DNA from: a virus
IMG/VR virus record: IMGVR_UViG_3300021962_000219
Span: 1 to 42,433 of that record
Reading direction: 5' to 3' (one strand)
Length of the DNA: 42,433 nucleotides
Shown here: positions 13,492 through 38,570 of the stretch, in pieces
Numbering within the stretch: position 1 is the stretch's first letter
Layout of the letters: each line of letters opens with the position of its first letter
Made by a program: the position numbers and the translations under genes
The notes under the pieces: generated by a model
Databases searched by the model: none
Seen by the model: the letters and a program-made list of their open reading frames with translations, nothing else
Told to the model about the DNA's origin: nothing

Positions 13492-13812
13492 TTACTTAGC
13501 CGCTGGCTTTTTCTTCTTAGGCGCAGTAGTCGCTTTAGTAGATTGCTGTCTAGGCTTATTTGTTTTAGCAATAGGTGCTGGTTGCTTTTCAATCCAAGGT
13601 GTTTCTTTCACTTCAGGTTTTGATTCTGCAACTGGTGTTGCTTCAACTTTAGCGATAACGGCTTCTGTTGTTTCTTTGATGTTCTTTTCTGCAACATCCG
13701 CAACAGAATTCGGCTGAACCAAATCAACAGGTTTACTTGGCTTTCGATTTGCATTTACATACCATGCGTATGCAAGTACACCAAAAATAGCTAATGCAAT
13801 AATAATTTCCAT
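13492..13812 (-). CDS. Membrane-anchored Pro/Lys-rich protein, 106 aa
   Basis: Residues 1-20 form one membrane helix (MEIIIALAIFGVLAYAWYV). The rest is disordered, rich in Ala, Glu, Pro and Lys, and ends KKKKPAAK. It lies directly downstream of the endolysin and is likely co-transcribed with it. A helix plus a long periplasmic tail could suit a lysis accessory role, by position only. Confidence 0.72.
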   Translation of the reverse strand: MEIIIALAIFGVLAYAWYVNANRKPSKPVDLVQPNSVADVAEKNIKETTEAVIAKVEATPVAESKPEVKETPWIEKQPAPIAKTNKPRQQSTKATTAPKKKKPAAK

Positions 13813-13821
13813 GATTTCTCC

Positions 13822-14445
13822 TTAATGTCCTAAAATGTGAACAGCATGTTCATAATGTTTAATGCGATCTTCAAGCCCAATGTATCCGCCATTAATGCGT
13901 TTTGTCATCGTCTTCAAATCACGAATATCGGCTAACTCGTTTAACCTTGTAGCAGACCAGAACCAGCAAGCAGAGTGAATAGCATATTCAACATCTATAA
14001 GCCAATCCGGATTTTCGATTAGTGTATTGTTCTCAAACAACTGTTGAGTACATTTCGTATAATTATTCTTTCCTGTAATTTGAATAATTCCACGACCACG
14101 ATATCTCCAACCATCTCCAGACTCTTCAGGTCCATTTCCCATACGATTTGCATAGATACGATTCGCAATCATTTCTGGCTTGCGTTCATATTGTAATGCT
14201 AATGCGTCTGTAGGAAAGTATTTAGCAAACAGACTACGCAATCCTTTAGCGCCATAGTTTAAATTTTCTTGCATTGCGGTAAACCCAGCAGATTCATGTC
14301 CACATTGTGCCATAAATGCCGCAACTCTTTCTGGCGTATCTATATCGTATTCAGGTAGAATTTCAGAAAGGTTTTTGTACCACTCGTCAAAGTTTTTTAC
14401 TCTAGGTATTAATTGTCGTACCGCATCTTCGGTGAAAAAGTCCAT
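13822..14445 (-). CDS. Endolysin, glycoside hydrolase family 19
   Basis: Encodes 207 aa with a complete GH19 (chitinase/lysozyme-like) domain: AQCGHESAGF with the catalytic Glu at 51, QENLNYGAKGL with Glu60, and RYRGRGIIQITGKNNY (about 114-129), which shapes the cleft. Family knowledge: phage GH19 enzymes cut the glycan strands of peptidoglycan. No signal peptide is seen, so a holin or pore is needed for export. The ribosome site lies in the 3' arm of a perfect hairpin (14452-14472) with a late-promoter-like box beside it. This predicts translation only from late transcripts, as for T4 lysozyme. Confidence 0.92.
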   Translation of the reverse strand: MDFFTEDAVRQLIPRVKNFDEWYKNLSEILPEYDIDTPERVAAFMAQCGHESAGFTAMQENLNYGAKGLRSLFAKYFPTDALALQYERKPEMIANRIYANRMGNGPEESGDGWRYRGRGIIQITGKNNYTKCTQQLFENNTLIENPDWLIDVEYAIHSACWFWSATRLNELADIRDLKTMTKRINGGYIGLEDRIKHYEHAVHILGH

Positions 14446-14451
14446 CGCTAT

Positions 14452-14472
14452 CTCCTATGATTGTCATAGGAG
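14452..14472 (-). promoter_or_regulatory. Hairpin sequestering the endolysin ribosome site
   Basis: The minus strand reads CTCCTATGA, CAA, TCATAGGAG: a perfect 9-bp stem with a 3-base loop. The Shine-Dalgarno AGGAG is the end of the 3' arm, 6 bases before the ATG at 14445. Read-through RNA from upstream genes would carry the whole stem and hide the site. Confidence 0.75.
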
Positions 14473-14480
14473 TATTTAGC
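14473..14480 (-). promoter_or_regulatory. Candidate late promoter inside the endolysin control element
   Basis: GCTAAATA, 6 of 8 matches to the T4 late box TATAAATA, directly upstream of the hairpin. A start about 6 bases after the box would begin inside the 5' arm, so the stem could not form. Confidence 0.5.
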
Positions 14481-14486
14481 ATTGAA

Positions 14487-15212
14487 TTAATCCCAAAGTG
14501 CTTGGTAATATTTGCCGAATAGACGAAATCCGTTTTGAATTCTTTTCTCGACAACTTTCATGCCCTCATAGTCACACTTGTATGTGTCATTAGGACCATG
14601 TTCCATTCGAAACAACTTAGCATCTTTCTTGGGAACTTCATTGCCATCTTTATCGACAGGCTTCCAAATTAATTCGTGTTCACCAGAACGAAACGCTTCT
14701 TCCCATGAGTCATCAAGTTTACAATTGAATGCAAAAATCATTTCATCAAGTACCCAATCCCAACGTTTAAAATGATTTCCGTCAGTATCGTATTCATTCT
14801 CTTTTGCTGGCGCTGAAGTTGACTTCAATTCTTCTGGCACATCTTCATCATCAACATTAGGAGCACCATGCTTTGTCGCTTGCAATTGTTTCAACATAGG
14901 CAACACAAGCATTGCAAGTGTATGATCCATCGACCATGTATCATACTTGTCAATCTTGATGTAAGACACACGATTACGCTTAGATTCGATCCATTGACAC
15001 AGTTTCAATAGCCAAGTTTCTGGTGCGTTCTTTGATTCTACAATCTCTTCTTTTGTAGTGCCATGAGAAAGCCAAGTACCAAAGTCATGCACCCATTTAG
15101 GTTTGCTTTTGTACCCATATTCATCCTCGACTTCTTTTGCCCAAAAGCAAAGTGCTTCAGCAATTTGATATGGTCCGACCCAATTTTTATAAGGTCCGAT
15201 GTAAACTTTCAT
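14487..15212 (-). CDS. Conserved phage protein of unknown function, 241 aa
   Basis: Starts MKVYIGPYKNWVGPYQIAEA, a beginning shared, from memory, with proteins in many unrelated large phages. Other marked parts are DTWSMDHTLAMLVLPMLKQL (about 90-110) and WDWVLDEMIFAF (about 151-163). Soluble and acidic; it carries no signal or known catalytic motif. Its start overlaps the stop of the gene upstream. Confidence 0.78.
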   Translation of the reverse strand: MKVYIGPYKNWVGPYQIAEALCFWAKEVEDEYGYKSKPKWVHDFGTWLSHGTTKEEIVESKNAPETWLLKLCQWIESKRNRVSYIKIDKYDTWSMDHTLAMLVLPMLKQLQATKHGAPNVDDEDVPEELKSTSAPAKENEYDTDGNHFKRWDWVLDEMIFAFNCKLDDSWEEAFRSGEHELIWKPVDKDGNEVPKKDAKLFRMEHGPNDTYKCDYEGMKVVEKRIQNGFRLFGKYYQALWD

Positions 15213-25572: not shown

Positions 25573-26591
25573 CTCATTCTCCAAATGTTATATTCAAGTA
25601 GTGCCTTAGGACCACGAAAAGTATTTTTATTTATTGTATTGAGTATTTCATCCTGTGTTTTTCCAGCTAGTATCATATCGTTGATATCTTTTTCTTGATA
25701 TGATTTAGGCCAGATCACAACATTTGCATTTGCGTTAATTGCATCGCCAATCTCTCTCACAATTTCTTTGTTTCTAGGTTCATTATCGTAAATTAGTACT
25801 AACTTGTCTTTCGGCAAATAGTCTAATGCATATTTTAAATTCGAATTGCCTACAGCGACTGCATTAGGCAAAAACAAACTATCGATTGGACCTTCAGTAA
25901 CAAAAATAGTCTGTGATGTATCTATCCCGTTCATGTTGTAAATCATGGGCGAATCTTCTTTTATTTTCATAACAAGATATCTTAACTTCTCTCCACGAAT
26001 TGCACGTGCAGTTAATCCCACAAGTTCATCGTCTTTATCTTGAAATGGCAATACGATTCTAGGTTCATTCGTCACAATCTTCTCTTCATATTCTGGAGAA
26101 AAGACTTTTAACTTCTGAACATCTTCAACATAATATAGTGTCTTTAATTTATCATTTGGCACTTTTCTAGAACGTGCGTAAACGACAGCTTCATGTTTTT
26201 CATCAAGTTTAATTAGTGGTGTCAATACACCTTTGAAGTTATCTGTCTTATTGCTACCAAAAAGCACAGGCTTAAAAACAAATCCATGTGACTTATGACC
26301 ACGATTTCCTGTATCACCTTCTTTGTATCGCTCTAAGCAATACTCTTTGTACAGATTGGGATCAACAGCTTTAATTAGATTGCCCAGCGAAATGCTAACG
26401 GAACAGTTGTGGCACTTGTAGAATAGCCCACCTTTTTTCGCAAAGATGTATCCACGTGCTTTAGTTCTATTTGTTTGGGAGTCACCACAGATGGGGCATC
26501 TGAAGTTATAGGTGTAATCGCCCTTGCGAACGAATTTGTCCAGACGGACAGAGAGTGTACCAATGTACTTTTGGTCAATCCAAATGCTCAT
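25569..26591 (-). CDS. 61: DNA primase, T4 gp61 type
   Basis: 340 aa, against about 342 in T4. N-terminal zinc finger CPICGDSQ and CHNC (C32, C35, C60, C63) for template recognition. The Toprim part has IFVTEGPIDSLFLPNAVAVG (Glu of motif 1) and LVLIYDNEPRNKE (the acidic pair replaced by DNE). It synthesises RNA primers together with the gp41-type helicase encoded at 40182-41588. First gene of the nucleotide operon, driven by the promoter at 26629-26657. Confidence 0.93.
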   Translation of the reverse strand: MSIWIDQKYIGTLSVRLDKFVRKGDYTYNFRCPICGDSQTNRTKARGYIFAKKGGLFYKCHNCSVSISLGNLIKAVDPNLYKEYCLERYKEGDTGNRGHKSHGFVFKPVLFGSNKTDNFKGVLTPLIKLDEKHEAVVYARSRKVPNDKLKTLYYVEDVQKLKVFSPEYEEKIVTNEPRIVLPFQDKDDELVGLTARAIRGEKLRYLVMKIKEDSPMIYNMNGIDTSQTIFVTEGPIDSLFLPNAVAVGNSNLKYALDYLPKDKLVLIYDNEPRNKEIVREIGDAINANANVVIWPKSYQEKDINDMILAGKTQDEILNTINKNTFRGPKALLEYNIWRMR

Positions 26592-31135: not shown

Positions 31136-33094
31136 TTATTCTTTGTTTTCTTTCAATTCCGGATTAATTTCGATTGGCTCTTTCTTGCCAGTCAATTGAT
31201 CGCCCCTTTCAACAGCTTTTTTGCTAGGGGTTTCTTCTTTAATCTTCTTTTTCTTCATTACGTCTTTAAGTTTCTTTGGCTTTTTAGCTTCAACGATTTC
31301 TTCTTCGTTAACAGAAACATTGCCAACTGTTTTAATTTTAACGTTTGCATCAACGCCTAATGCTTTAAATGCTTTATTAAATTTCTTAGCTAATTCTGGA
31401 CCACCAGACTTGAACTCAGGAACTTTATCTTCTTCGGATACCGCAAGCCACTTTGAAATGCCACTCTTTTTCAATTCACCTTTAGTCACATGCTTTGCAA
31501 CAGCATTCAAATCTGGATTTGTACCTTCTTTGTTCAAAAGATTGTGATAGCGAACCGCTTTCTTTAAGTCTTTGCTTGCGTTTGCATTCTTTGGATCACC
31601 AGCTTTGTCAAAATGATCGTCTGCTTTAGCTTTAGCTTCAGCACCACGCTTCATAGCCCTAATCTTGTCCATCAAACCTTCAGCCATTTTCTTTCTAGCG
31701 GCTAGTGCGGCTAGCTTCGCACGTTTGGCGGCCGCTTCTTTATCATGCGGCTTGTCGCTTGGCTTAACGTCTTTGTCGTATGCGTCACTCTCTTCCATGT
31801 CCTTTGGCTTATTACCCGCCTTCTTCATTGCAATAGCAATAGCGGCTTGTTGTGCTGGACTACCTGCTTCATCGATTTGAACTTCTTCAATGTACATGTT
31901 CAATTCATACTTATGATTGTCCATGTTGTAAACTTGAAGGTGCAATTTCTTCTTAGATTCTTTGCCGTCTTTCTTTAGATTAACAGAGAATGAATTTGTT
32001 TTACCAGCAGAAGGTTTCTTAGGGCCAGTAGCAACTTTGTCGTGCCAATCATCCATGTCTACTTCAAAGCCACGCTTCTCTGCTTGCTTGATAGCTGTCT
32101 GTACTGCTGTAGAATAATCTTTGTGATAAATTTCATAGTCAGACTTCTCTTGTAAGTCTGTTTCTTCTTTACGCAACTTTGCTAAATCATCACCATCAAT
32201 TTTACCATTCTTGTTCTTATCAAGTGCTTTTTGTTTTGCTGACAACTCTTCACCACGCAACTTCGCTAAATCAGAACCATCGATCTTGCCGTTCTTGTTC
32301 TTGTCGATTGCTTTTTGCTTTGGAGACAATTCTTCATTTGTTTTCTTACCATACATGTCAACTAGTTGTTTAACATAGAAATTGTAATGACCACGGCGAT
32401 CATTGTATTCTCTATCTCCAAGTACAGTCTTTAGTGCTTGCACAGCATCTTTTAATTCTGAACCCTTCATTATTTTTAATGCGTCTGTGACAAGTGAATC
32501 AACTCTTTGTGAGGCTTCCGTCACATCTTCATTTGTTTTCTTATCGTCATTGTCAAACTGTTTTCTAGTAGCTTTCATAATGCCAGAGAAACGTTTGTTG
32601 CCTTTTTTAATGTCGCCTTCTTTGTCTGCCTTAGATGCGTCTTCGCCAGCTTTCTTTTTATAGTCTGCTAGTTTCTCGTTAGACAACTCATCAAGCTGTG
32701 TTTCTTCTTTCATGTTTTTTCTAGCAACACGATTCTGTGCCAGTTTAGAAACAAACTTGATTTCAGCGCCAGCAAGAGATTTCAAAGATTTCAAATCTAA
32801 TCTATCAAGCATGGCAATCAATTTCTTGTATGTGTCGCTAGATGGATCAACTGTATTAATTTTAGAGTACTCAGCTTTTAATGCGGCAATCTGAGATGGA
32901 CTAAAAGATTCTTCAACAGTCTCTTCTGTTCTCAATGATTTCTTTTGTTGCTGAATTGCTTTGCGTTCTTTCTCTTGCTTCAAACGCAACTGAATCGACT
33001 TCAATGTCAACTTAGCACGTTTCTCTGCTGATTGTGTGTCTTTAATTGAAGTGCCAGAACCAACTTCTGCTTCTTTAATGTTTTTGTCAGTCAT
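31136..33094 (-). CDS. Lys/Glu-rich virion-core-like protein with two EF-hand-type loops, 652 aa
   Basis: Very charged helical protein. Two nearly identical 28-residue units at residues 253-308 carry calcium-loop text DKNKNGKIDGSD and DKNKNGKIDGDD (positions 1, 3, 5, 9 and 12 acidic or Asn). This is the dockerin/EF-hand pattern. Ala/Lys-rich repeats (KAGNKPKDM; EAAAKRAKLAALAARKK) follow, with an acidic/Lys end. By position next to the 916-aa protein and by composition, it is probably a head-core or internal virion protein, possibly cleaved during maturation. No enzymatic domain is seen. Confidence 0.75.
   Translation of the reverse strand: MTDKNIKEAEVGSGTSIKDTQSAEKRAKLTLKSIQLRLKQEKERKAIQQQKKSLRTEETVEESFSPSQIAALKAEYSKINTVDPSSDTYKKLIAMLDRLDLKSLKSLAGAEIKFVSKLAQNRVARKNMKEETQLDELSNEKLADYKKKAGEDASKADKEGDIKKGNKRFSGIMKATRKQFDNDDKKTNEDVTEASQRVDSLVTDALKIMKGSELKDAVQALKTVLGDREYNDRRGHYNFYVKQLVDMYGKKTNEELSPKQKAIDKNKNGKIDGSDLAKLRGEELSAKQKALDKNKNGKIDGDDLAKLRKEETDLQEKSDYEIYHKDYSTAVQTAIKQAEKRGFEVDMDDWHDKVATGPKKPSAGKTNSFSVNLKKDGKESKKKLHLQVYNMDNHKYELNMYIEEVQIDEAGSPAQQAAIAIAMKKAGNKPKDMEESDAYDKDVKPSDKPHDKEAAAKRAKLAALAARKKMAEGLMDKIRAMKRGAEAKAKADDHFDKAGDPKNANASKDLKKAVRYHNLLNKEGTNPDLNAVAKHVTKGELKKSGISKWLAVSEEDKVPEFKSGGPELAKKFNKAFKALGVDANVKIKTVGNVSVNEEEIVEAKKPKKLKDVMKKKKIKEETPSKKAVERGDQLTGKKEPIEINPELKENKE
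32171..32338 (-). repeat. Two 84-bp tandem coding units (EF-hand-type)
   Basis: Two adjacent 28-codon units differ by only four amino acids, chiefly P/A and S/D changes. The near-identity indicates a recent duplication in the gene. Confidence 0.8.
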
Positions 33095-33106: not shown

Positions 33107-35857
33107 TTAACTGTCTACTTTAGCGCCAGCACGCCATTGATAACACGACCAGTAATTTGCTTTCCATTTTGGTCCTGGATTATCACAACCATGTCTTGCT
33201 CTGAAACTTGCTCTACGTTCTGGATCGTCACGTTTGATTTCCATATTGGGATCACCGAAACGAACGATAACAACATTACCATTTGGTCCCATAGTGTATA
33301 CACCAAACTTCTTTGGACCATCAGGTGTTCTGAATGGATTATTAAGTGTAACTGTTTTGCCTTGATAGTCTGCTTCGACTAAAATGCTTTCCCAATCAAC
33401 TTCTTCTAAAATTTCAGTTTCTTCTGCGACACTATCTTTTGGCACACAATCAGGAACCATTTTGTTCCCTTTCTTTTTCATGCCAACTTGTTTATGTGTG
33501 TCCCAACATTTTTCTTCTAAGTCTTTGCAGTCATCGCAACATTCATCTTCTTCATCAAAGACTTTATACTTTCTTTGTGTAGCAGGTTCATTGACTGTAT
33601 TGCTTGCAGTCTCTTGTGAATACTTAGCTGTGACGATTTCTAGGCTTTGACCAGGAGTTTCTCTGGAGTACGCAATACGCATTGCATCTGTGCCCCACTC
33701 TAACGCTTCTGCAAATTTAGAGAACTCTTCGTTGCTTTTTACTTTAGATGCTAAGTCGCTATCCGCACCGCCCCATGTTCCTTTACCCTTTGTGATAAAA
33801 GAATTCACTCTAGCGAATGCCCATTGTTGTGGTGTTGTTCCAGGTCTATGTCCGCCTTGCCAAGCCGCCATACCACGATTGTAAACTTGTTTTAGAATGC
33901 CATAAGAAATGCCAGACTTCTCCGCTTTCTTTTTCAAGCCTTCAATCTCTTCTAAGATTGGTTTAAACTCTTCGTATGCGTCCCCGAAATCTTCTGGATC
34001 CATGCCCATCAATTCAGCTTCTAATTCATCATCATTGTCTTCTTCATCATCTTCTAATTCATCATCCGACATTTCTTCATCATCACCATTTTCAAATTCT
34101 AAGTAATCACGTACTGAAGAAATGTAGTCTGTCGCTTTTGTAATTTTAGAAAGAACCCATTGCTCTGGCTCTTCTTCCATGCTTTCCATCATATCTAAAA
34201 CATCTTCTGCGTCATCTACAAGACTAGCCAATTCAATTTGCGCCATAGAGATACCATCCATCTCTACAGAATCGTCATACTCTTCGCCCATCAACTTCAT
34301 GCCAGTTACATCTTGAATCAACTTCCAAGCGGCAGTCTGATTCTTATCAGCAATAAGTTTCTTGAGTTTTTCTTTTTGTTCTTTTGACGCAACTTCAAAG
34401 AACTTCATCATTTCCATCATACCGATGTTGCCTTTGTATGCGGCTTCTTGAATAGATTCTTTTTGTAGTTGTGTTTTTGTCATTCTGAACAATGCATCGC
34501 TAGACAATACCATGTCTAACAATGTTGACAACAAATTATTTGTTGCAGTTCTTTCTTGCGTTGAAAGTGTGTCGCCAGTCTCTAGTTTAGATACAGCACG
34601 TTTGATAACACCCAACAATGCTTTGTCTGCTAAACCCATACGAACAAGCATATCTAAACGTGACAATTCTTTCTTGTCAACTGCTTCACCATACATCTGT
34701 TTGAATTTTTTTGTATGCTTAGATTGTGGCATACCTTTTTCACGTGCTTCTTTATCACCAGGTGCGTCTTTGTATGCACTTGAATCAGAATCTGATTTTG
34801 GTCCAGTTGTTGCAAAGTGTGATGCACGTGCATCTTTAGTATCTTTGTCTAAACCAACATAATACTTCTTAGGTTGTGTTCCATCTTTACTATTAACATC
34901 TTTGTCTTGTGGTAGAGTTGGTTTTTCAACAATGAAATTTGCAAATGAGCTGTTTACATCTTCTTTAGTAGTAGACACATGTTGTTTTCTCAACAACTCA
35001 TTTTTTCGTGCAACTGGAATTAAACGTACTGCGAACTTACGAATTGCTGGCAATGTTTTTTGCAGTCTTGTATCAACTGCAATTTTCTCACCAGTACTCA
35101 AGTCCGCATAGTTCTTACCACCAGCAAGTCTTGCTCTGAAAAATTTATATGCCATCTTAACGGCACGTTGTTTCAATCTCTTAGGATCGGCAAAACGTTT
35201 TGCTTGCAATGATCTTGCTCTAACTAAACGCTTTTGAATTCTTTTGAATTGTTGCGCTCTTTGTCTACGTTGTGCAAATGACAAAACGTTTTCATCTAAT
35301 TCTAGTTCTTCAGACAATTTCATTCCTTTCTTAACCGCATTGAATAACGCTTTTGCGTCTGCGTCAGATAATTTTGATGGCACACCTTGTTTAAAACTAT
35401 TAAAATCATCCGATGATACAAAACTACGCATTTTGGAACCAGACATACCTGTAACGCCTTCTGCGTCAGGGTCACGTTCTCCTGCTGAAATGATTTCGAT
35501 TGATTTAAAGTCAAAGTCTTTGCCGTTGTACTTATTCAGCAAAGTCTTAAATTCTGGGATTCTGTCGCTACCTACCACGACAACTAGATTGTCGTATTTA
35601 CCTGTGAGTTCTTTTGCAACTTCAATAATTGTACGTGCAGGCGAATTCTGAACCATAGGTCCAAATGCCTTTTTGGCAAACTTAACTTTTGTATTGAAGT
35701 CTAGGGGGTCTTTTTTAGGATTTGTGCTGTGAGAAAGATACAGTTTTGCATCAGCGTTGCGCTTGATTGCTTCAGACTTGATTTTATCTGCTAATTTTTC
35801 GTGCCCATTTGTCATGGGATTCATTCTTCCGAATGATAAAACTACTGTACTTTTCAT
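33107..35857 (-). CDS. 916-aa multidomain virion-type protein with adenylyltransferase-like N-terminus
   Basis: Residues 1-150 form a nucleotidyltransferase fold: FGRMNPMTNGHEKL with T16-x-G18-H19, VVVVGSDRIPEF, and SGSKMR (139-144) as the second signature. Then a very basic Arg/Lys stretch (about 190-260), a linker, and an acidic region (about 560-625). A DUF5824-like domain follows (about 640-705; ILKQVYNRGMAAWQGGHRPG), then a Cys cluster ECCDDC (about 772). The C-terminal 83 residues (NNPFRTPDGPKKFGVY; RRASFRARHGCDNPGPK) are DUF6321-like, often fused to head proteins. It looks like a polyprotein cut in the head. An exact late promoter lies upstream. The role of the enzyme head is unknown. 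Confidence 0.82.
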   Translation of the reverse strand: MKSTVVLSFGRMNPMTNGHEKLADKIKSEAIKRNADAKLYLSHSTNPKKDPLDFNTKVKFAKKAFGPMVQNSPARTIIEVAKELTGKYDNLVVVVGSDRIPEFKTLLNKYNGKDFDFKSIEIISAGERDPDAEGVTGMSGSKMRSFVSSDDFNSFKQGVPSKLSDADAKALFNAVKKGMKLSEELELDENVLSFAQRRQRAQQFKRIQKRLVRARSLQAKRFADPKRLKQRAVKMAYKFFRARLAGGKNYADLSTGEKIAVDTRLQKTLPAIRKFAVRLIPVARKNELLRKQHVSTTKEDVNSSFANFIVEKPTLPQDKDVNSKDGTQPKKYYVGLDKDTKDARASHFATTGPKSDSDSSAYKDAPGDKEAREKGMPQSKHTKKFKQMYGEAVDKKELSRLDMLVRMGLADKALLGVIKRAVSKLETGDTLSTQERTATNNLLSTLLDMVLSSDALFRMTKTQLQKESIQEAAYKGNIGMMEMMKFFEVASKEQKEKLKKLIADKNQTAAWKLIQDVTGMKLMGEEYDDSVEMDGISMAQIELASLVDDAEDVLDMMESMEEEPEQWVLSKITKATDYISSVRDYLEFENGDDEEMSDDELEDDEEDNDDELEAELMGMDPEDFGDAYEEFKPILEEIEGLKKKAEKSGISYGILKQVYNRGMAAWQGGHRPGTTPQQWAFARVNSFITKGKGTWGGADSDLASKVKSNEEFSKFAEALEWGTDAMRIAYSRETPGQSLEIVTAKYSQETASNTVNEPATQRKYKVFDEEDECCDDCKDLEEKCWDTHKQVGMKKKGNKMVPDCVPKDSVAEETEILEEVDWESILVEADYQGKTVTLNNPFRTPDGPKKFGVYTMGPNGNVVIVRFGDPNMEIKRDDPERRASFRARHGCDNPGPKWKANYWSCYQWRAGAKVDS

Positions 35858-36006: not shown

Positions 36007-37311
36007 TTACCTAGAAACCTCTTCCCAATCCACAGAAGTCAAAGCACTAACAGTATTAACAGAAGCCGACATTGCAATTGTTAATGGTTCTGGTGTTGAA
36101 GTTAATGAGTTTCTTTGCAATTGAAACTTAAACAATGCTTCTTTCAAAATGTCAATCGTCTGTGAAGATTGATTTGTGATGCCGATGTATCCAGTTCCAA
36201 GAACTGTTCCTCCAGATATTCCCGTAGCACTCAAGTCATATTGAACTGAAGAATCCGTAATATCAGTCCATGATGGTGATGTTAATGTTCCACCCCTAAT
36301 TATTCGCCAAGCAACACTACATGGGTTTGAGTTGATACCCAATAATGATATTGCAGTAAGAATTACAATCGCATCAAGGTTTGCAGACTTTAATTGGAGA
36401 GACACTACCGGATAATATGTTCCTGCTGTAGTCAATGTTTTTGGTGTTTGAACTGGCGTACCGATAGATTTTTGATCGCCACGCAATTCGTATCCACCTT
36501 CAGAAATTGTAGAAGAACAAATTTGCTTAAATGTGCTTCCGCCAGATACGGTTCCGATATTTTTGATTTCATATCGTAATGGTAAAGACGCTGTAGTGAT
36601 ATATGTTGAACTCAATAGGTTTGCGTGATGAAACGAATGACAATGAATCAATTGTCCATTGATAACAAACCCACATCGAACAGAACCAACACCCAACCAT
36701 TCAATATCTGTCCAGAAAATTTGTGCTTGTGTCAAATCTAATGTCAATTGTGATGGACCTGTACCATCCAATGGGTCATAATTCCAGTCTGCTTGGAGTG
36801 CTGGCGTATCAACAACTGATCCACTTACCATAGACCTTTCAACAAAACTAATTGTGTTTCCAGATTGCTCTAAGAAGATTCCGTTGTTTGCACCAAAGTA
36901 TCCGACACGTTGTCTTAGATTTGTTTTCGGTGCATTCATCACCATAGTGTTCAAAACAAACAATGACTTACCTGGTTGATAAGACATAACTTTTGTTGTC
37001 TCACGAACAATCTCTGCATTTGCAGTTCCGTTTGTCAAATTCAGATTAATCAAACCCTCATTTGATGAAAATACGTATGTTGTATTTGCTGTGTTTGACG
37101 TAGCCCAAAGTCCGTTGTCTTTATATCTATGTGAAGAATCAAAGAGTGTCAATGGCGTTGACATTCTTGCTCTACCGAATGCATCAACCGCAACACCTGT
37201 TGGGTTTGCAGGACCAACACGATTGCCGTATTGATCGGCGAGCATGACAACTTCAAAGAGTGTTTTGTTGTCTTGTAAATATTGGTGGGTGTCTTTTCTA
37301 AACTGTGCCAT
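36007..37311 (-). CDS. Virion structural protein, beta-rich, 434 aa
   Basis: Start chosen at MAQFRKDTHQYLQD (37311), which shares an A with the upstream stop (TAATG). The ATG four codons earlier is also possible but is set too close to AAAGG. The text DAFGRARMSTPLTLFDSSHR, then GLWATSN, then LRQRVGYFGANNGIFL, occurs in cyanophage-type T4 relatives as a structural protein, from memory. Beta-sandwich rich in Thr, Ser and Gly; a tail or head decoration role is likely. Probably expressed late through read-through from the KxDG gene's promoter. Confidence 0.8.
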   Translation of the reverse strand: MAQFRKDTHQYLQDNKTLFEVVMLADQYGNRVGPANPTGVAVDAFGRARMSTPLTLFDSSHRYKDNGLWATSNTANTTYVFSSNEGLINLNLTNGTANAEIVRETTKVMSYQPGKSLFVLNTMVMNAPKTNLRQRVGYFGANNGIFLEQSGNTISFVERSMVSGSVVDTPALQADWNYDPLDGTGPSQLTLDLTQAQIFWTDIEWLGVGSVRCGFVINGQLIHCHSFHHANLLSSTYITTASLPLRYEIKNIGTVSGGSTFKQICSSTISEGGYELRGDQKSIGTPVQTPKTLTTAGTYYPVVSLQLKSANLDAIVILTAISLLGINSNPCSVAWRIIRGGTLTSPSWTDITDSSVQYDLSATGISGGTVLGTGYIGITNQSSQTIDILKEALFKFQLQRNSLTSTPEPLTIAMSASVNTVSALTSVDWEEVSR

Positions 37312-38537
37312 TATCGTTGCCATCCTTTGATTACATCAGGAGAGAAATTTGCATAACTGAATTGCATTCTGTCAACCAACTTGACAGCATTCCCCTTGAT
37401 CTTATCGATTGCTACGTAGCCTTCGACACCAGTTACCTCATATCCTTTCTTAGTCAATAAGAAAGTGTTTAAGGTTTTAACTTCATCCATCTTTTTAATC
37501 AGAATCAATTTCGCTTCTGCTAGTAGATTCATCATTGTAAAAATATCTTCTAAGTGTGCTTTGTTCTTTGGTGAGAAAAATTGCAGAACTTTGCTTTTCT
37601 TTAGCATCTGAGTAGCACGCCCACGTTCGCCTTTACCCTCTGCTTGTTTCTCGTAGTAGTCTTCAATGTATTGAATTAATTCTTTAACGTGAGTTTTGAC
37701 GTTTGTGATTTTCAATTGCTGGCGCACTTTTGAATTATTGAATGTCTTGATGCGTTCAATCAAATCATCATCCGTATTGATATAGTTTAGAGTAGCGGCA
37801 TCTAACTTTTGAAATATCTTTCCAGCGTCAGATAGAATTGCAGTCACATTGTCATTCTCTGCTTGCGTCAACGTAGCTTTACCAGACACATCGTGATAGA
37901 CTGCGCTTGTCATCCAAACGTTTGAATTCTTTGTGAGTGTGCTGAGAATGTCTTTACCAAAAACTGCTGACATTGTTTCGAATGTGTCGCCTTCGTATAT
38001 TGTATGCCAAACGATACCAATCTTTGCTCTTTGTATTTCTTTAGCAAGTTCACTTCCCGTAGGTACTGCATAGACAAGAGTGTTTGGATGAAACGTTACG
38101 TATGATTCGCCTTCAATTGTTTCTGTCTTCAAGTCTGATTGTGTGAATAACAAGTCGCCTTGAATCACGCCTTTGATGTTGATCTTAGGCAACCACATCA
38201 AACACGCTTTGAGTTTGTCTGCTAAATCGCCAGAAGTGTCTGCATCGATATCTGCTGGAGTTTTATATACTTTAGGATTTTTATTGAAGACACCCTTCTT
38301 CGCAACAAAGAACTTGCCGTCTGTTGGGTCTTGTCCTGCAAAAACTGCTGGTGCACCATCCCACTTGACTGAAATGTCAACTTTGCTTTTAGAATGTCCA
38401 GCAAGCATATCACGCACCGCTCTGAGTGCGTTTATGCTATCTCTAGTTCCTTCAACACCGCCATTTAGAACATCGTCTTCCGCATGTTCCATGTGAGTGT
38501 TTTTCTTCTCAATAAGATAATCTTTAAATTTAAACAT
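37311..38537 (-). CDS. KxDG nucleotidyltransferase-like protein (DUF6267-like), 408 aa
   Basis: Residues 52-66 read KVDISVKWDGAPAVF: K58-W-D60-G61 fits motif I (KxDG) of the ATP-dependent ligase/capping superfamily, where the Lys takes AMP. Further strands match the later motifs: VIQGDLLF (124-131) as motif III, FHPNTLVYAV (149-158), and IGIVWHT (173-179) as IIIa. The helical C-terminal half is not like DNA-binding domains of known ligases. From memory it is a DUF6267 protein of T4-like phages, probably packed or acting in assembly. Late promoter and a hairpin stand at its start. Confidence 0.72.
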   Translation of the reverse strand: MFKFKDYLIEKKNTHMEHAEDDVLNGGVEGTRDSINALRAVRDMLAGHSKSKVDISVKWDGAPAVFAGQDPTDGKFFVAKKGVFNKNPKVYKTPADIDADTSGDLADKLKACLMWLPKINIKGVIQGDLLFTQSDLKTETIEGESYVTFHPNTLVYAVPTGSELAKEIQRAKIGIVWHTIYEGDTFETMSAVFGKDILSTLTKNSNVWMTSAVYHDVSGKATLTQAENDNVTAILSDAGKIFQKLDAATLNYINTDDDLIERIKTFNNSKVRQQLKITNVKTHVKELIQYIEDYYEKQAEGKGERGRATQMLKKSKVLQFFSPKNKAHLEDIFTMMNLLAEAKLILIKKMDEVKTLNTFLLTKKGYEVTGVEGYVAIDKIKGNAVKLVDRMQFSYANFSPDVIKGWQR

Positions 38538-38541
38538 AATT

Positions 38542-38570
38542 GGTCTATCGTTGCAATAGACCTATTTATA
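38542..38570 (-). promoter_or_regulatory. Late promoter with start-site hairpin before the KxDG gene
   Basis: Exact TATAAATA (38563-38570), then GGTCTAT, 7-base loop, ATAGACC (38542-38562). The 3' arm ends 4 bases before the ATG and covers the only AGA-like ribosome site. A start near 38557 would drop most of the 5' arm, so the stem forms only on longer upstream transcripts. Confidence 0.65.

Follow-up and report, generated by a model that had tools for sequence, protein, structure and literature searches.

The leader of the endolysin gene studied here raises the question of why the ribosome-binding site of a lysis gene should be enclosed in a perfect hairpin lying directly behind a late-type promoter box. 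An endolysin made too early kills the cell ahead of its progeny, so the timing of its synthesis matters. The gene is carried by an IMG/VR virus fragment of 42.4 kb from an uncultured relative of T4 (the whole stretch of 42,433 nucleotides analysed is hereafter referred to as the window). This fragment belongs to the T4 superfamily, and its gp41-type helicase shares 62% identity with the counterpart in Prochlorococcus phage P-SSM7. The initial annotation had proposed that the timing mechanism of T4 gene e is used here for a GH19 enzyme. This proposal is supported by the fold of the leader, covariation between its arms, the use of similar boxes at late genes and the presence of gp55 in relatives; the switch itself is one that we infer. 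We assign a probability of roughly 0.87 to the reading of this leader as a lock that acts in cis to time endolysin synthesis, working like the T4 gene e leader. RNA arriving from the upstream genes would carry the full hairpin, with the Shine-Dalgarno sequence buried and no translation of the endolysin. Once infection is at its late stage, RNA polymerase with gp55 would start at the GCTAAATA box, at about position 14467, yielding an RNA without half of the 5' arm, on which the ribosome site would be open and from which endolysin would be made.

Read 5' to 3' on the minus strand, the leader consists of GCTAAATA, CTCCTATGA, CAA, TCATAGGAG, ATAGCG and the ATG (Table 1). The two arms, of 9 nt each, are 100% complementary across the 3-nt loop, and AGGAG lies 6 nt ahead of the endolysin ATG at 14445. 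The perfect 9-bp stem described in the initial annotation, with the endolysin AGGAG in its 3' arm, proved exact to the base, both in the sequence and in the repeat search, and the late-like box placed directly ahead of the 5' arm does indeed adjoin it, GCTAAATA at 14480-14473 abutting position 14472. The predicted fold of the long RNA extends further, with the UAGC of the spacer (14446-14451) able to pair with the GCTA of the variant box (14477-14480; GCUA in the RNA). This additional pairing is only partly kept in relatives, and may be the reason that GC stands in place of TA in the variant box.

Table 1. Features of the two leaders and adjoining genes in the window.
Feature	Position	Strand	Basis
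GH19 endolysin, 207 aa	13822-14445	minus	Pfam, PHROGs, PDB sequence match, AlphaFold model
Spacer ATAGCG	14446-14451	minus	fold of long leader
3' arm TCATAGGAG, with Shine-Dalgarno AGGAG at 14456-14452	14452-14460	minus	sequence, repeat search, fold
Loop CAA	14461-14463	minus	sequence, repeat search
5' arm CTCCTATGA, anti-Shine-Dalgarno	14464-14472	minus	repeat search; covariation
Predicted late +1 (A), within 5' arm	14467	minus	inferred from T4 spacing (PMC1524935)
T4-type late promoter box GCTAAATA, variant of TATAAATA	14473-14480	minus	sequence and orthologues
Upstream gene, phrog_11543, function not assigned	14487-15212	minus	PHROGs
DUF6267 protein, PF19782, E = 2e-106	37311-38537	minus	family match
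Hairpin GGTCTAT-TGCAACG-ATAGACC, ending 4 nt before DUF6267 start codon	38542-38562	minus	
TATAAATA box ahead of DUF6267 gene	38563-38570	minus	box scan

The gene product matched PF00182 in Pfam (E = 7e-9), the endolysin family phrog_181 in PHROGs (E = 9e-77) and, by sequence, PDB entry 9eoi (E = 2e-42). The top Foldseek match of its AlphaFold model (pLDDT 90) was a Pseudomonas GH19 endolysin, and 9eoi was recovered with Foldseek as well as by sequence; the GH19 domain is recognizable both by sequence and by structure. This enzyme had been described as unrelated to T4 lysozyme, with a control element independent of the protein fold. This description is slightly overstated: BLASTP found no sequence similarity to the T4 gene e product, a GH24 enzyme (E = 4.7), and T4 lysozyme was not among the Foldseek matches of the model, but GH19 and GH24 are usually grouped together in one remote lysozyme-like superfamily, which makes independence of the fold too strong a term. 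There being no homology at the sequence level between this endolysin and T4 lysozyme, the control element is therefore not tied to the gene that it serves. Directly after the endolysin gene, 13492-13812 (minus strand) encodes a small protein rich in Lys, Pro and Ala, with a hydrophobic stretch at its N-terminus and no family match, which may be a lysis partner (a candidate holin or spanin). Elsewhere in the window, 33107-35857 (minus strand) encodes a 916-aa protein with a cytidyltransferase-like domain at its N-terminus, and its 652-aa neighbour (31136-33094, minus strand) has EF-hand/dockerin-like DKNKNGKIDG repeats.

In T4, the late box TATAAATA sits at positions -13 to -6, and the form found in Aeh1 is CTAAATA (PMC1524935). 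With the T4 spacing applied to the window, on the sequence only, +1 falls six bases past the box, at A14467, inside the 5' arm. This spacing is an assumption for the window and, outside Aeh1, GCTAAATA departs from the consensus box, two points that count against the timing lock. In the nearly full-length relatives G002 and G006, boxes of the TATAAATA/CATAAATA type lie ahead of gp13, gp18, gp19, gp20 and gp23, so that capsid, portal, tail tube, sheath and neck genes are covered. No such box precedes any replication or recombination gene tested in these two contigs (boxes at the contig-end genes of G004 and G009 were disregarded, as a negative-coordinate artefact). Both G002 and G006 also encode gp55, gp45 and RegA homologues, and these close relatives thus combine gp55 with the box at late genes. 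A search for gp55 gave no match in the window fragment, which is without that region.

The predicted cost of opening the ribosome site was calculated with ViennaRNA for the long leader and for RNA beginning at +1. With a start at 14467, only half the 5' arm is left, and opening the Shine-Dalgarno sequence costs 2.4 kcal/mol, down from 12.8 in the long leader; for T4 gene e it costs 2.8 kcal/mol, down from 14.3. The window leader is predicted to form a lock as strong as that of T4 e. The folding of the leader suggested in the initial annotation gave a consistent picture, the fold covering the ribosome site and a start at the T4 spacing opening it; a stem over the Shine-Dalgarno sequence, as in a T4-type lock, is thus found in the window leader by fold as well as by covariation. 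For the region from the Shine-Dalgarno sequence through the AUG, the cost falls from 19.9 to 3.0 kcal/mol, a difference of 16.9. On the same measure, the T4 late genes I-TevII, I-TevI, e, segB, 26 and 49 lie at 9.3-12.7. Gene 51, for which we know of no reported lock, lies at 9.0, most of the other T4 late genes tested at 4.5 or below, and soc (2.1) is not recovered. The first six are described as locked in PMC3014915 or PMC2988022. Among about 50 other box-bearing genes of the related contigs, from which G005 16561 was excluded as an endolysin with a wrong start, the value for the Shine-Dalgarno sequence alone averages about 0.9, with a maximum of 6.6. Some endolysin relatives have small predicted gains by this criterion (2.3-2.4 kcal/mol for L042 and L048, 2.5 for L045).

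In a different explanation, the hairpin would shield the late mRNA at its 5' end or mark a processing site, with transcription starting immediately ahead of the 5' arm and the late RNA keeping the hairpin. The late 5' end of this RNA is a predicted one, and a start 1-2 nt past the box would keep the stem. However, the T4 spacing sets +1 six bases past the box (PMC1524935), a late mRNA with its ribosome site under a stem would be blocked, and a stem of this kind is absent from ordinary late genes here. We consider a protective or processing function very unlikely.

The comparison with related phages was based on 80 relatives fetched from IMG/VR. The box and the stem holding the Shine-Dalgarno sequence are present in the window and in all 48 of the nearest relatives (24 distinct leader sequences). 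Orthologues have GCTAAATA or TATAAATA at the same position, and divergent relatives have the T4 consensus box TATAAATA together with other arm sequences, such as CTCTCTGTA/TACAGGGAG in L036, CTCTTCGTA/TACGAGGAG in L044 and ATCCTTGTA/TACAAGGAA in L045. Whole-leader alignments produced with MAFFT placed the distant arms wrongly, and the arms were aligned instead in register, with artificial flanks and with the omission of L043, which has a one-base bulge in its 3' arm. Because an alignment of this kind is fitted to the structure, permutation and slide controls were used. Of the cells in the 13 distinct arm pairs, 91.5% were paired, and the paired changes that the initial annotation had proposed looking for in related phages, naming their lack as a refutation, were found, both arms changing together at five of the nine stem pairs (16 cells with two-sided changes). 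The covariation score was 0.487, versus 0.237 ± 0.034 after shuffling, a value as high being obtained in none of 500 shuffles, and pairing fell to 38-62% when the register was slid. In L008, L009 and L036, replacement of the sequence upstream extends as far as the box, yet the box and hairpin stay; the stem of L042 has two mismatches. The lock is absent from L062, L073, L140, L142 and L144, which have a late-like box and an open leader, from L050-L054, which are without the box, and from most of the more distant relatives.

The same comparison bears on the possibility that the hairpin is an operator for a repressing protein or small RNA (RegA-type), the late box being merely a normal promoter. 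Full-length relatives do encode regA, and T4 gene 43 has a hairpin operator near its ribosome site (PMC3014915). Nevertheless, the arms and loop diverge while pairing stays, contrary to what would be expected of an operator read by its sequence; an operator would also leave unexplained the stem always starting right at the box, and the other late genes of the same contigs have open leaders. An operator is, in our judgement, highly improbable.

The arrangement of box, stem and start codon is restricted in its distribution. The ten related contigs contain 129 late-like boxes (counted as TATAAATA, CATAAATA or GCTAAATA), 12 of which have an abutting stem and a start codon; the rate for control AT-rich motifs was 0.2-0.8%, several of these matches being the same loci in another register. 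All 12 loci are orthologues of only two genes, those encoding the GH19 endolysin and a DUF6267 protein. The DUF6267 gene carries what is, from its leader, a putative second lock of the same layout in the window: TATAAATA runs straight into the hairpin, a clear Shine-Dalgarno sequence being absent, and the predicted cost of opening the start region falls from 11.0 to 2.2 kcal/mol. Relatives have compensating arms (GTCCATC/GGTGGAC in L274 and GTCTATC/GATAGAC in L284), and a few, L237 and L279, are without the element. In L282 and L286, TATAAATA upstream of the DUF6267 gene gives way at once to a stem rich in GC and then a T-run, an arrangement resembling a terminator behind a late promoter, one that late RNA would skip.

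The stop codon of the phrog_11543 gene lies 6 nt ahead of the endolysin box, so RNA reading through from this gene would enter the hairpin. The endolysin gene is near the end of a run of head-to-tail, tightly packed minus-strand genes extending from 18871 to 13492, in which the single terminator-like site found on the minus strand is weak and lies inside a gene. A sigma-70-like site (18927-18899, 11/12) precedes the run, in a scan that overall was at shuffle level (28 sites versus 24.2 in shuffles). From this gene arrangement, read-through RNA into the endolysin is plausible. The hairpin, lying as it does between the upstream gene and the endolysin, could alternatively be an intrinsic terminator that is weak or has decayed, in line with the stem and T-run of the DUF6267 relatives L282 and L286. 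Yet the stems of the window clade have no terminator-like T-run, T-rich spacers occurring only in L036 and L042-L045, and the Shine-Dalgarno sequence is always within the 3' arm; in the window leader, the stem is followed by ATAGCG and the scan calls no terminator. A terminator, weak or decayed, has scarcely any probability. Pairing of the Shine-Dalgarno sequence with nearby sequence by chance has in its favour that equal-sized repeats occur in the window at shuffle frequency (three perfect repeats of at least 9 bp with loops of 3-10, versus a mean of 2.55 in dinucleotide shuffles), the hairpin by itself not being significant in the window, but it is refuted, to a negligible residual probability, by conservation and covariation, with two-sided changes in divergent relatives, an element kept after upstream replacement and a restriction to two genes.

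Leaders hiding the start site of a GH19 endolysin were found in at least four geometries: Shine-Dalgarno in the stem, start codon in the stem, box in an outer stem and a stem with a long loop. In the cultured Vibrio phages pv27 and SRILMA, the Shine-Dalgarno sequence of a GH19 endolysin is covered by pairing between TATAAATACTC and GAGTATTT, and its predicted opening cost falls from 8.7-11.4 to 2.0-2.1 kcal/mol. The same leader stretch is matched in phiTY18, phiKT1024, Va1 and TDDLMA (94.6-100% identity), and the Vibrio phages with this leader encode a remote gp55-like sigma. Unlike in the window, the 5' arm of these leaders includes the box itself, and their endolysin is only distantly related to that of the window; promoters or hairpins are not mentioned in the pv27 paper. 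In L065, L068, L070, L071 and L147, the start codon lies in a long stem, with the Shine-Dalgarno sequence in the loop and GGTAAATA at the 5' arm, and the predicted cost of opening the region from the Shine-Dalgarno sequence to the AUG falls, in the L065/L068 group, from 12.7 to 4.0 (L065) and from 11.4 to 2.4 kcal/mol. L209 has a long outer stem containing the box (9.2 to 1.6 kcal/mol) and L210 a stem with a long loop (4.3 to 1.6 kcal/mol). On a tree of 64 endolysins (a quick tree, with modest support), the locked state needs at least five changes, which makes its repeated origin on GH19 endolysins likely, with losses as the alternative. Further start-codon stems were observed in SRILMA (L234), at 12318-12291 (minus), 6576-6536 (minus) and 25588-25612 (plus); they belong to two homing endonuclease genes and the gene for endonuclease VII (the product of T4 gene 49), and TATAAATA lies in or beside the arm pairing with the start codons of these three genes.

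The mechanism is already known; the gene family and the phage branch are new. The gene e lock was previously known from T4 and its close relatives, and a 2010 review places KVP40 and cyanophages among the phages without an apparent gene e (PMC3014915). No description of the recurrence of the lock across GH19 endolysins and DUF6267 genes was found in the literature searched. That the same logic, with strong covariation, serves another enzyme family in remote parts of the superfamily, cultured Vibrio phages included, suggests that this element arises repeatedly under selection on lysis timing. We lean towards the view that the T4 superfamily has evolved, more than once and as a general device, the nesting of a late promoter within the 5' arm of an inhibitory hairpin or against it. 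The resulting sequence rule (a late box that adjoins, or lies within, an arm concealing a start site) could be used to find genes kept silent early, and has already flagged the DUF6267 gene in the window.

The lock of T4 gene e has been demonstrated experimentally (PMC3014915), whereas that of the window is predicted from its sequence. In both, the late box overlaps or abuts the 5' arm, the Shine-Dalgarno sequence lies in the 3' arm and the product is an endolysin; gene e lies downstream of early genes, and the window endolysin, near the end of a minus-strand gene run, may do so too. They differ in that gene e encodes a GH24 enzyme and the window a GH19 protein without sequence similarity to it, in that T4 e has two late boxes and the window the one variant box GCTAAATA, and in the sequences of their arms. 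In the T4 late genes soc, 49 and 26, the ribosome site is likewise sequestered (PMC3014915, PMC2988022), and their products are unlike that of the window. I-TevI, I-TevII, segB and Aeh1 mobE are homing endonucleases, with arm sequences and stem details unlike those of the window, but their promoter is placed such that the late RNA is without the inhibitory stem (PMC2988022), as is predicted for the window, and I-TevI, I-TevII and segB of T4 are recovered by the same energy measure as the window leader.
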